The notes beneath the pieces are model-generated. The model was not told the DNA's origin. It saw nothing but the letters and a program-made list of their open reading frames with translations, and ran no database searches. From Roseovarius pelagicus (GTDB taxonomy: Bacteria > Pseudomonadota > Alphaproteobacteria > Rhodobacterales > Rhodobacteraceae), in NCBI RefSeq assembly GCF_025639885.1, contig NZ_CP106738.1:2418001-2482000 (forward strand): DNA of 64,000 bases. Reading direction: 5' to 3'. The translations under genes were made by a program, and so were the position numbers. Positions 5,958 to 13,315 of the stretch are shown here, in pieces (position 1 is the first letter of the stretch; each line of letters begins with the position of its first letter).

Positions 5958-6560
5958 GTGGTGACGGAGCTGATTAATCGTGCCACCCGGCGCATCCCGA
6001 CTTGGTCGGTTTATGTGATCGGTCTGCTACCGATCCCCTGGCTCATATATATGGCACAGACCGGGGGGCTGGGGCGTGAACCGATCAAAGGGTTGGAGCA
6101 CGAGCTGGGCGAACTGGCCCTACAGTTGCTGATCGCCGGATTGTGCATTACGCCGCTGCGCCGCTACGCGGGTTTGAACCTGATCCGGTTTCGTCGAACC
6201 TTGGGCGTTTTGGCCTACTCTTATGTATCGCTGCATCTGTTGGTTTGGCTGGTTCTGGATATCGGCGTTCTGAGCCAAATCGGGACGGACATTCTAAAGC
6301 GTCCTTACATAACGATCGGCATGGCGGGATTCGTTGTCTTGACGCCGCTGGCGTTCACATCGAACAATTGGTCGGTGCGCCATCTGGGGCCGAAGTGGCG
6401 CAAACTGCACAAGCTGACATATCTGGCGACTCTATTAGGTGGTTTGCATTACGTGATGCTCGCGAAAGGGCTTCAACTGGAGCCCCTTCTATATATGAGC
6501 GCGATTCTCATGCTGCTGGCGCTGCGAATCCGACGGTCACCGAGGAATCAGGCTGCTTGA
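5958..6560 (+). CDS. msrQ: heme-binding membrane subunit MsrQ
   Basis: A 200-residue integral membrane cytochrome b that feeds electrons from the quinone pool or a cytoplasmic flavin reductase to MsrP. Five or six hydrophobic segments are visible. Conserved histidines lie in EHELGE, YVSLHLLVW, WRKLHKLTYL and LGGLHYVMLAKG and are the expected heme ligands. The likely start is GTG 5958 or 5961, directly after the msrP stop. A GANTC site lies inside its last codons (6545-6549), the first of the dense group that continues downstream. Confidence 0.92.
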   Translation: MVTELINRATRRIPTWSVYVIGLLPIPWLIYMAQTGGLGREPIKGLEHELGELALQLLIAGLCITPLRRYAGLNLIRFRRTLGVLAYSYVSLHLLVWLVLDIGVLSQIGTDILKRPYITIGMAGFVVLTPLAFTSNNWSVRHLGPKWRKLHKLTYLATLLGGLHYVMLAKGLQLEPLLYMSAILMLLALRIRRSPRNQAA

Positions 6561-6916: not shown

Positions 6917-7326
6917 CCACCTCACCGGCGGCGCAGAGATGCACACCGGGACGCCAGACGGCACCACGGAGCGACGCTCCAGACGGTCAGACGGTAAGAA
7001 AATTTGAGGCAGATGAGGCGGGTCGCGCTAGTAAGTTGTAGCGCAGCCGGTTGATTTTGTCTCGGGACTTTCGGGTCCCACGCTCTTTGAAATTGATGAT
7101 ATCTGAAGAGATATGTGGGCGGTTTGGTTCATTCGATGAACAAACAACTGCACATATATCGCGCTGGTAGGGGCAACCCGATGACCAGTGTCAGCTTCAC
7201 TGTTTGGACGGCTTTCGGTTTCTTATGAAACCAGAAGCACAACAAACAGATCGTTCCGGCCTTTGCCGGTCGGAACAAATATGTGCAGAGGTTCGAACGT
7301 CAAGGATAAGCTGGTAACAGCTTTTC
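6917..7326 (+). other. rRNA operon leader with boxA-like antitermination site
   Basis: Transcribed leader with no gene. GCTCTTTGA at 7082-7090 resembles the rrn boxA (TGCTCTTTAACA), where NusB/S10 load to prevent termination. The rest consists of short inverted repeats that would form part of the 16S precursor processing stem. Confidence 0.5.
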
Positions 7327-8804
<1,478 letters not shown>

Positions 8805-9668: not shown

Positions 9669-10231
9669 AATCAAGCGCGAAAAGGGCGTTTGGTGAATGC
9701 CTTGGCAGTAAGAGGCGATGAAGGACGTGATACTCTGCGATAAGTCATGGGGAGCTGAGAATAAGCTTTGATCCATGAATTTCCGAATGGGGCAACCCAC
9801 CTGATACTGTGTTATTACTACTCTTCGGAGTGGCTAATAATGCGGTAAAACAGGTACTTATAGACTGAATACATAGGTTTATAAGAGCAAACCCGGAGAA
9901 CTGAAACATCTAAGTACCCGGAGGAAAGGACATCAATTGATACTCCCCTAGTAGCGGCGAGCGAACGGGGACCAGCCGAGCCATGAATGTGAATAGAACG
10001 TGTTGGGAAGCACGGCCATAGTGGGTGATAGCCCCGTATATGAAGCATGATTGGACGTATTAAGTAGGGCGGAACACGTGAAATTCTGTCTGAAGATCGG
10101 AGGACCACCTTCGAAGGCTAAGTACTCCTTACTGACCGATAGTGAACCAGTACCGTGAGGGAAAGGTGAAAAGCACCCCGACGAGGGGAGTGAAACAGTA
10201 CCTGAAACCGAACGCCTACAATCAGTCGGAG

Positions 10232-10856
10232 CTTGACTGGACTCTAATGACAATCTGTTCCATCTAGTTGTTAACAAGCAATTAGAGGAAGATGAGTATG
10301 TCGGATTTAGCATTCATTACGGACGGAGCAGTCGGTGTACTGTTCCTGGTCGCTGGCCTCATCGATGCCGGCGTTAACCATTGTCCGAATGAAGGTTGTC
10401 TCGCAAAAAATGAAGTTCAAGCCTACAACAGTCTATCTGTTGGTCAGACAACGTTTCAAAAGAACGTTGTCGGCGAAGAGCTTTACTTTCGGCGGGACAC
10501 AGGGGTAGCAAACGGTCCATTTCAATGGATTTGGGGTGCCTCTGCAACAAGCGATGGAGAGCTATGGGCTGGCGTTGGTCAGGCCGTGACATTCTCTACG
10601 CGAAACGATCGGTTCTATACGCAGCTGCACTCAATGCTCGGCCTTTACGAAAAGGGCGATGGGGTGGATCTGGGTGGACCTGTCGAATTCCGATCCGGCA
10701 TAGAATTCGGATATCAGAATAAAATGGGTACTCGCATGGCGATCAGCTTTGATCACCGATCGAACGCGGGCATCTATTCGCTGAACCCCGGACTTGAAAC
10801 TGTACAGTTTCGGGTCTCTATCCCAACCAAGTGATTGTTATCAGTGTCCAGTCTTG
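10232..10856 (+). other. intervening sequence (IVS) in 23S helix 25
   Basis: Relative to E. coli 23S, homology breaks after CAATCAGTCGGAG and resumes at TTGTGACGGCGTACC. The two ends of the insert, 10232-10255 and 10833-10856, are complementary over 24 positions with only about four mismatches and one G-U pair, so they form a long extended helix 25. Such stems are RNase III sites in known 23S intervening sequences. The interior is almost entirely filled by one reading frame whose TGA stop lies inside the right arm. The insert is on the same strand as the rRNA, so its transcription depends on the rRNA promoter. Confidence 0.85.
10298..10834 (+). CDS. PagL-like lipid A deacylase (acyloxyacyl hydrolase) encoded inside 23S rRNA
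   Basis: A 178-residue frame within the helix 25 insert. Near its end, FDHRSNAGIYSLNPGLET has the PagL catalytic arrangement: His 153, Ser 155 (H-x-S-N) and Glu 167. The Ser-to-Glu distance of 12 equals that of the P. aeruginosa PagL triad (His126, Ser128, Glu140). GGPVEFRSGIEFGY fits a beta-barrel strand. The N-terminus is hydrophobic (AVGVLFLVAGLI) and could act as an export signal, although it lacks positive charges. PagL enzymes sit in the outer membrane and remove the 3-O acyl chain of lipid A. GAGGAA (10285-10290) is well placed for ATG 10298 and too close for ATG 10292. No stop or frameshift interrupts the frame. Expression from an excised rRNA fragment is inference. Confidence 0.75.
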   Translation: MSDLAFITDGAVGVLFLVAGLIDAGVNHCPNEGCLAKNEVQAYNSLSVGQTTFQKNVVGEELYFRRDTGVANGPFQWIWGASATSDGELWAGVGQAVTFSTRNDRFYTQLHSMLGLYEKGDGVDLGGPVEFRSGIEFGYQNKMGTRMAISFDHRSNAGIYSLNPGLETVQFRVSIPTK

Positions 10857-11355
10857 TGACGGCGTACCTTTTGTATAATGGGTCATCGACTTGGTCTATC
10901 TAGCAAGCTTAAGCCGTTAGGTGTAGGCGCAGCGAAAGCGAGTCTTAATAGGGCGAATGAGTTAGATGGATCAGACCCGAAACCGAGTGATCTAGGCATG
11001 ACCAGGATGAAGGTAAGGTAACACTTACTGGAGGTCCGAACCCACACCTGTTGAAAAAGGTCGGGATGAGTTGTGCCTAGGGGTGAAAGGCCAATCAAAC
11101 TCGGAGATAGCTGGTTCTCTGCGAAAACTATTTAGGTAGTGCGTCATCCGAATACCCTCGGGGGTAGAGCACTGGATGGGTAATGGGGCCCCACAGGCTT
11201 ACTGATCCTAACCAAACTCCGAATACCGAGAAGTACTAGATGGCAGACAGACTGCGGATGCTAACGTCCGTAGTCGAGAGGGAAACAACCCTGACCTACA
11301 GCTAAGGCCCCTAATTCATGGCTAAGTGGGAAAGCAGGTGGGACGACCAAAACAA

Positions 11356-11386
<31 letters not shown>

Positions 11387-12122
11387 TAAAGATAGCGTAA
11401 CAGCTCACTGGTCTAAATAAGTTGTCCTGCGGCGAAGATGTAACGGGGCTCAAGCCATGAGCCGAAGCTTAGGATGCCGTAAGGCATGGTAGCAGAGCGT
11501 AGTGTGACATAGTTCCATTCCTCCTTAGCTGGTTTCGACCAGCATTGGAGGAGAGGAGCTTTCGATGAAGCGGGCGCGTGAGCGATCCCGTGGAGAGATC
11601 ACTAGTGAGAATGATGACATGAGTAGCGATAAACAGTGTGAGAGACACTGTCGCCGAAAGTCCAAGGGTTCCTGCTTAAAGCTAATCTGAGCAGGGTGAG
11701 CCGACCCCTAAGGCGAGGCCGAAAGGCGTAGTCGATGGGAACCAGGTTAATATTCCTGGGCCAGATGGAAGTGACGGATCGTGAAGGTTGTTCACCCTTA
11801 TTGGATTGGGTGGGCCGCTAATCGGTTCCTGGAAATAGCTCCATCGCTAGATCGTACCCTAAACCAACACAGGTGGACCGGTAGAGAATACCAAGGCGCT
11901 TGAGAGAACCACATTTAAGGAACTCGGCAAAATACCTCCGTAAGTTCGCGAGAAGGAGGCCCGATTGGGACGCAAGTCTTGGTCGGGGGCACAAACCAGG
12001 GGGTGGCGACTGTTTACTAAAAACACAGGGCTCTGCGAAGTCGCAAGACGACGTATAGGGTCTGACGCCTGCCCGGTGCCTGAAGGTTAAAAGGAGGGGT
12101 GAGAGCTCTGAATTGAAGCCCA

Positions 12123-12205
<83 letters not shown>

Positions 12206-12460
12206 CGACTTCCCCGCTGTCTCAAATGTGGACTCAGCGAAATTGAATTGCCTGTCAAGATGCAGGCTTCCCGCGGTTAGACGGAAAGACCCCGTGCACC
12301 TTTACTACAGCTTCGCACTGGCATCAGAATTGAGATGTGCAGGATAGGTGGTAGGCTTTGAAGCATGAACGCTAGTTTGTGTGGAGCCACCCTTGAGATA
12401 CCACTCTTCGCACTTTTGATGTCTAACCGCGGTCCGTTATCCGGATCCGGGACCCTGCGT

Positions 12461-12495
<35 letters not shown>

Positions 12496-12633
12496 GCGTA
12501 ACGGAGGCGCGCGAAGGTTGGCTCAGAGCGGTCGGAAATCGCTCGTTGAGTGCAATGGCAGAAGCCAGCCTGACTGCGAGACTGACAAGTCGAGCAGAGT
12601 CGAAAGACGGCCATAGTGATCCGGTGGTCCCGA

Positions 12634-12687
<54 letters not shown>

Positions 12688-13197
12688 ACTGCCCAAGAGT
12701 CCATATCGACGGCAGTGTTTGGCACCTCGATGTCGGCTCATCTCATCCTGGGGCTGGAGCAGGTCCCAAGGGTACGGCTGTTCGCCGTTTAAAGAGGTAC
12801 GTGAGCTGGGTTTAGAACGTCGTGAGACAGTTCGGTCCCTATCTGCCGTGGGTGTAGGATACTTGAGAGGAGTTGCCCCTAGTACGAGAGGACCGGGGTG
12901 AACGTTCCACTGGTGGACCAGTTGTCGTGCCAACGGCAGTGCTGGGTAGCTATGAACGGACAGGATAACCGCTGAAGGCATCTAAGCGGGAAGCCCCCCT
13001 CAAAACAAGGTATCCCTGAGAGCCGTGGTAGACCACCACGTCGATAGGCTGGAGATGTAAGTGCAGCAATGCATTCAGTTGACCAGTACTAATTGCTCGA
13101 TAGGCTTGATTTGATCCAGTAGAAGTCAGACTTCATACCGGACCAAAGTCATACACACCAACTACATGACTTGACTTGGAACCCGAGGATCTTTCTC

Positions 13198-13315
13198 GGT
13201 TTGGTGGTCATAGCACAAGCGAAACACCCGGTCCCATCCCGAACCCGGCCGTTAAGCGCTGTCGCGCCAATGGTACTGCGTCTTAAGGCGTGGGAGAGTA
13301 GGTCGCTGCCAAACC
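13198..13315 (+). rRNA. rrf: 5S ribosomal RNA
   Basis: A 118-nt gene whose ends pair (GGTTTGG with CCAAACC). The core contains ACCCGGTCCCATCCCGAACCC and the GGTACTGCGTCTTAAGGCGTGGGAGAGTAGG region typical of alphaproteobacterial 5S. It is co-transcribed with 23S. Confidence 0.95.

Follow-up and report, generated by a model that had tools for sequence, protein, structure and literature searches.

The purpose of rRNA intervening sequences is a long-standing question. Their closing stems are described at helices 9, 25, and 45; RNase III cleaves these stems, and the resulting pieces remain in the ribosome (PMC4990558, PMC6191907). Some of these sequences carry an S23p frame and others do not. In another bacterium, the 23S intervening sequence contains an S23p gene, which was judged by the authors to be unexpressed and decaying (PMC4990558). 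For rRNA inserts of CPR bacteria, the proteins that were recognised are nearly all homing endonucleases of the LAGLIDADG or GIY-YIG type, plus an S23p-like family, and many of the rRNA-gene insertions are reported as group I introns (PMC11270868).

The locus described here resembles the 23S intervening sequences of PMC4990558 in its helix 25 site, in the stem that replaces a small hairpin, in its patchy spread, and in its sense-oriented reading frame. It differs from S23p intervening sequences in that the cargo belongs to a known enzyme family and the protein is under strong purifying selection, that the coding RNA is selected for folding, and that the insert is found in every 23S gene of the two multi-copy genomes that were checked. 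Unlike the four-helix bundle of S23p, the encoded protein matches PagL alone and is modelled as a barrel. With the homing-endonuclease insertions it shares a protein gene inside an rRNA gene (PMC11270868), but neither an intron match nor an endonuclease domain was found. A literature search covering titles and the beginnings of abstracts, with most subscription journals outside its range, found no PagL or lipid A deacylase gene in a 23S gene. The intervening sequence as such is known, and an enzyme cargo with dual selection on protein and RNA is, as far as we found, apparently new.

The window, i.e. the whole stretch of 64,000 nucleotides of Roseovarius pelagicus that was analysed, contains an rRNA operon with the order 16S (7326-8796), tRNA-Ile, tRNA-Ala, 23S (9669-13113), 5S (13200-13314), and tRNA-Met. 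The following features were assigned:

9669..13113, + strand: 23S rRNA gene, interrupted at helix 25 (RF02541 model positions 1-2925, 2591.8 bits)
10235..10255, + strand: first strand of the closing stem (5′ arm), which is presumably a substrate of RNase III (pairs with 10833-10853)
10256..10297, + strand: predicted leader hairpin over the ribosome site, TGTTCC.../...GGAAG (z of -4.3 for L026, the window's copy; comparison of 23S copies with copies elsewhere)
10285..10291, + strand: Shine-Dalgarno (SD) sequence GAGGAAG (SD-like sequence in 37 of 38 23S copies)
10298..10834, + strand: PagL-family gene, 178 aa (PF09411, E 4.4e-12; alignment A1; dN/dS)
10754..10798, + strand: active-site motif His155-x-Ser157 ... 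Glu169 (codons at 10754, 10760, and 10796; invariant in A1, aligned with 2erv)
10833..10853, + strand: second strand of the closing stem (3′ arm), which overlaps the stop codon (pairing over 35 loci)

The 23S gene covers the bacterial model RF02541 from end to end and exceeds it in length by 520 nt. The original prediction had placed an excess of about 600 bp at helix 25, and this is borne out, because the distance between the helix 25 flanks is 652 nt in the window versus 39-40 nt in empty relatives, i.e. about 612 nt extra. The insert replaces the tip of helix 25, normally an ordinary small hairpin. In the assembly (4.27 Mb, three contigs, 99% complete), one match to 23S and one to the PagL family were found, and both are this locus; as far as the assembly shows, all ribosomes of the cell derive from the interrupted gene. 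An insert with 98.9% identity (L001) is present in the complete chromosome NZ_CP049037.1, and the same 23S site is filled in further assemblies, which excludes chance or a single misassembly. The presence of the insert in complete assemblies also speaks against its being absent from the 23S gene, and the observation of a PagL-type gene inside helix 25 of the 23S gene is confirmed. Between positions 6000 and 16000, only rRNA and tRNA families reached the Rfam gathering score, without an intron match; for the loci L102, L059, and L011 no Rfam match was found at an E-value of 0.01.

The insert is closed by a complementary stem, as had been claimed, but its length is 21 positions, with 19 standard pairs, and not 24. 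Across 35 loci, the arms pair in 683 of 735 cells, compared with 17-46% when the arms were slid by 1-3 positions. Five of the pairs have changes on both sides among these loci, i.e. they covary, and the arms are nearly invariant among the 23S copies. An insertion at a known helix tip and a complementary closing stem, by which an intervening sequence is recognised, are thus both found. A gene for RNase III is present in the genome.

PagL is a lipid A 3-O-deacylase (Pfam PF09411, crystal structure 2erv), and we take His-x-Ser plus Glu to be its catalytic residues. The reading frame in the insert has two possible starts, ATG at 10292 (180 aa) and a second ATG at 10298 (178 aa), which is conserved in the closest relatives; the stop codon TGA (10832-10834) extends into the 3′ stem arm. 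The protein matches PF09411 with 46.7 bits versus a curated cut-off of 23, and up to an E-value of 10 PagL was the only match in Pfam, with neither an endonuclease domain nor S23p. PF09411 was matched by 16 of 16 members at an E-value of 0.001, and no other Pfam family was matched. The NCBIfam search found no family, and phmmer with the single protein found no match among PDB sequences. The structure model predicts an eight-stranded outer-membrane barrel, as expected for PagL, and structure alignments to solved PagL have an identity of only 18-19%. Glu169 follows Ser157 by 12 residues, the motif is invariant in the 16 rows of A1, and H-x-S-x11-E is found in 41 of 43 distinct 23S-borne proteins. 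The homology of the frame to PagL (profile match, structure alignments, and active-site residues), the spacing of the triad, the undisrupted frame of 178 residues from ATG 10298, which is not degenerate in relatives carrying the insert, and the well-placed ribosome site GAGGAAG all held up, and the original interpretation is supported at the level of its sequence claims. The protein is predicted to be an eight-stranded barrel with a PagL active site, and presumably it acts on lipid A or a similar lipid by cleaving off an acyl chain.

The protein shares its predicted fold and its active-site motif with PagL, but the N-terminus is atypical and the gene lies within an rRNA gene. The model has a helix of low confidence at residues 4-29. 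The first 28 residues contain no Lys or Arg in 34 of 38 23S-borne rows and in 36 of 49 other rows, and Gly12, Cys31, and Cys36 are invariant in A1 (residues 1-36 correspond to 10292-10399 of the window). Such an N-terminus is unusual for a Sec signal, and export to the outer membrane is putative. Together with the low identity to solved PagL, the unusual N-terminus and its two invariant cysteines would fit a PagL fold with another substrate or another site of action, which we regard as unlikely in view of the nearly universal retention of His-x-Ser plus Glu in the 23S-borne proteins and of PagL as the sole Pfam family matched.

Selection on the protein was estimated for pairs of 23S-borne copies. 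Ten pairs have dN/dS values of 0.035-0.136, which are rough for the three pairs with dS >2, and the changes are mostly at third codon positions; an eleventh pair, the window gene and L002, is saturated at synonymous sites. For L059 and L060, two copies outside of 23S genes, the value is 0.023. No internal stops are present among the 23S-borne matches listed for the family and genus samples. The purifying selection on the 23S-borne copies implies that the cell very probably makes the protein and benefits from it. A chance frame, a decaying gene, or an assembly artefact is vanishingly improbable, given the low dN/dS with change dominated by third positions, the intact frames among these listed matches, and the insert in complete genomes.

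The distribution of the gene was determined in several samples. The initial scan yielded 22 loci, 17 of which have the gene at the identical 23S junction (for L013, one side was visible); among them are Pseudohalocynthiibacter aestuariivivens, several Roseovarius, three loci of Phaeobacter sp. J2-8, and two of Marinovum algicola. The family sample comprised 394 genomes from 393 genera, at least 103 of which match at an E-value of 1e-5 and at least 62 at 1e-30; 19 of these 62 have the gene in 23S, and 43 show no 23S gene alongside. In the genus sample, 20 of 50 genomes match, 18 in 23S and two elsewhere. Both samples include the window genome, and G278 is common to both. The forecast that relatives could be widespread is therefore upheld: a gene at the same site is present in 19 of the 394 genomes of the family sample and in 18 of the 50 of the genus sample. 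At least 84 of 390 genomes of the order sample match at 1e-30, part of which were placed, adding five genomes with the gene in 23S (G677, G552, G480, G457, and G558), so that at least 40 distinct surveyed genomes have the gene in 23S. These in-23S counts are lower bounds, as 23S is absent or masked in many assemblies; for G349, G025, G402, and G427, placement is based on the downstream 23S junction, as the sequence is masked or the contig ends on the upstream side. In the class sample, at least 34 of 385 genomes match at 1e-20; 32 are outside the family, all distant (best E-value 3.5e-25), and none of 18 loci from these 32 genomes (L183-L200) has a 23S gene beside it. In the large surveys (family, order, and class), the best eight or nine candidates per genome were scored.

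Among 149 family genomes, 53 yielded a 23S segment, and 10 of these 53 have the gene in 23S. The gene is sense to 23S in every classified locus. The multi-copy genomes G316 and G261 have the insert in three of three and two of two 23S segments, respectively. Comparison of helix 25 in 30 family genomes revealed 21 with 39-40 nt, seven, including the window genome, with a PagL-gene insert of 627-766 nt, and two that are masked, one of which has the same 3′ arm. Overall, 78 helix 25 sites are filled and 22 are empty, counting overlapping loci and not independent genomes. For six genomes with a PagL copy elsewhere and one readable helix 25 (G088, G097, G039, G076, G018, and G065), the helix is empty in all cases.

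The tree of 104 rows, which leaves out the window near-copy L001 and the short L114 and L119, has 15 changes between 23S and elsewhere, and at least six of them are forced by well-supported branches (quick method). The same 23S site and orientation throughout, and the nearly invariant arms, fit one entry into 23S, spread partly via recombination of 23S genes, and repeated exits, with the direction of change being inferred. Spread on phages, plasmids, or viral contigs was rejected: there was no phage match, none of 27 candidate stretches of viral contigs was confirmed as a relative, and the only plasmid matches were four distant ones in Sulfitobacter (32-33%).

Flanking regions were inspected for 64 loci with wide flanks; three are repeats (L253, L254, and L240) and L251 is in 23S, leaving 60 copies. 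Eight of these 60, in five genera, follow a 5S gene at a distance of up to about 2.3 kb. The orientation is the same as that of 5S in G371, G420, G438, G624, and G308, and opposite in G373, G097, and G461; the corresponding loci are L040/L205, L059/L253, L060/L254, L180/L246, and L215, and L083, L211, and L259. By a rough estimate based on genome size, this recurrence exceeds chance. Between 5S and the PagL gene of G624, inspection by eye revealed a hairpin with a run of T that resembles a terminator.

A rival reading is that of a mobile or hitchhiking element. The enzyme would be useful, the 23S gene would be a tolerated harbour reached via 23S recombination and devoid of regulatory meaning, and the fold described below would merely limit damage to the ribosome. 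The patchy distribution and the many changes of place on the tree are compatible with such an element, as are the pair L059/L060, which is equally conserved as a protein outside of 23S, and the known tolerance of helices 9, 25, and 45 (described in PMC4990558). However, the recurrence of outside copies at the ends of rRNA operons suggests that the rRNA neighbourhood matters, or that local recombination retains them. Furthermore, the sense strand of the insert has no second frame of more than 65 aa, and thus no transposase or homing gene accompanies PagL. We consider a merely hitchhiking gene a serious possibility, yet one that we lean against.

Selection on the RNA was addressed by folding. 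The whole insert folds much more strongly than dinucleotide shuffles (z of -11.7, 20 shuffles). Each coding sequence was compared with 20 versions of itself, obtained by shuffling synonymous codons between positions with the same amino acid. Identical proteins were kept once, and L023-L025 were passed over as further instances of the window's own gene. The tests of leader and coding regions included 38 of 43 distinct 23S-borne proteins (L013, L086, L095, L113, and L114 are masked or cut) and 49 of 64 distinct other proteins, the rest being partial profile matches, mostly of distant PagL; the 38 copies contain the near-copies L001 and L026, L009 and L010, and L014 and L016. The median z-value is -3.52 for the 23S copies, with 32 of 38 below -2, and -0.50 for copies elsewhere, with 5 of 49 below -2 (Mann-Whitney p of 2.7e-11). 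For comparison, 24 other long frames of the window, picked by length alone irrespective of annotation, have a median of -0.53. In 36 of 38 23S copies, the sense strand gives a stronger signal than the antisense strand (means of -3.72 versus -1.61), indicating that the selection concerns the RNA.

The contrast was also evaluated along the tree. For 13 path-disjoint pairs on the best tree, drawn across weak branches as well, about 90% have the stronger structure in the 23S copy, with a median Wilcoxon p of 0.001 and a worst value of 0.034 among 300 pairings; in one set, two of the 13 pairs are reversed. With well-supported branches only, three pairs are available, of which 2.1 go the expected way versus 0, too few for significance. 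The clearest contrast is that of the window (-8.3) and L027 (-12.0) with their close outside relatives L059 (-0.8) and L060 (-1.8). Exceptions are the 23S copies L047 (-0.1), L112 (-0.4), and L017 (-0.6), which are near zero, and the outside copy L085 (-3.7). The idea that the coding RNA conserves one specific fold was rejected; the consensus of 11 close homologues is weak (-42.9 kcal/mol, two-sided change in 14 of 75 pairs), and therefore selection seems to act on the quantity of structure rather than on a single shape.

The leader shows a similar difference. The median z-value of the region from -45 to +20 is -2.1 in 23S (n=38) and +0.4 elsewhere (n=49, including L078 and L080 without a recognisable start codon), with p of 4e-9, and the hairpin has a z-value below -1 in 26 of 38 23S leaders, as judged with shuffles that keep letter composition only. 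The median accessibility of the ribosome site is 0.25 in 23S (site present in 37 of 38) and 0.54 elsewhere (42 of 49; p of 4e-6). On supported branches, four pairs give about 2.0 versus 1.2, so that independence of the leader contrast from descent is not established. The often buried ribosome site suggests that translation of the 23S copies would be damped and not unrestrained.

Upstream of 17 of 49 outside copies the motif TRGACW is present, at about the position of CTGGACT in the 23S 5′ arm; 3.8 occurrences are expected, the maximum in 1000 letter shuffles, which keep composition only, is 12, and three are found on the other strand. Five outside copies (L039, L043, L059, L060, and L066) have blocks resembling CTGGACT-N9-ATCTG where the 23S copies have their 5′ arm. 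These blocks might be left over from the arm, function in a promoter, or both. As an alternative, the gene might have its own promoter in or next to the 5′ arm and be expressed independently of rRNA, with CTGGACT as an old promoter element; the enriched motif and the five retained block pairs would be explained. However, no sigma-70-like site is present on the sense strand of 9669-10900, and in the 23S copies the motif is part of a nearly invariant stem with covarying pairs. An own promoter thus appears distinctly improbable.

We consider it likely that the locus is a 23S intervening sequence with a working gene for a PagL-type outer-membrane enzyme, which is co-transcribed with rRNA, excised at its stem, tuned in its fold, and damped in its translation. 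It follows from the location that the gene would be transcribed in sense direction within the pre-23S rRNA. The closing stem would be cut, most likely by RNase III, yielding a two-piece 23S rRNA and a free mRNA-like RNA. Selection for folding of the coding RNA is evident from its synonymous codons, and the reason may be a tuning to an rRNA-like compact fold, by which a coding stretch of 540 nt could avoid mispairing with rRNA, attraction of Rho, and overtranslation, and which could protect rRNA assembly, transcription, or RNA stability. The predicted hairpin at the ribosome site might restrain translation against very high transcription, and the released RNA would be translated at a damped rate. 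If release and translation hold, the enzyme supply would follow ribosome synthesis.

A wider reading is quite possible, albeit tentative: Roseobacter-group bacteria may use the 23S gene as an expression site for an envelope enzyme, with a dual-purpose transcript, an rRNA-like coding fold, and a translation brake, so that lipid trimming would be set by ribosome synthesis, and the gene could leave and perhaps re-enter, losing and regaining the fold. A conserved enzyme gene resides in a 23S intervening sequence across many genera of a marine bacterial family, and offers a testable case of a single transcript serving as ribosome and mRNA. The copies inside and outside of 23S represent a natural experiment on the adaptation of a protein-coding RNA to an rRNA setting, and real genes may go unseen where annotation discards those located within rRNA.

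Several further loci differ from the common arrangement. L143 (G047) has another helix 25 insert of about 764 nt, with a masked interior and different arms. A match in G670 (C2:128418-128942) has one internal TGA and surroundings without 23S, and in L122 (G127) a second gene fragment adjoins the intact gene; both are signs of decay or partial duplication. In G266, the sole 23S gene found has an empty helix 25, and L102 (1756-2404) is a PagL gene of a distant branch with an N-terminus that, by eye, resembles a usual signal peptide. Both of its flanks are degenerate helix 25 sequence, upstream over 78 nt (78%) and downstream over about 33 nt, and L102 is perhaps the relic of another PagL that was formerly in such an insert.
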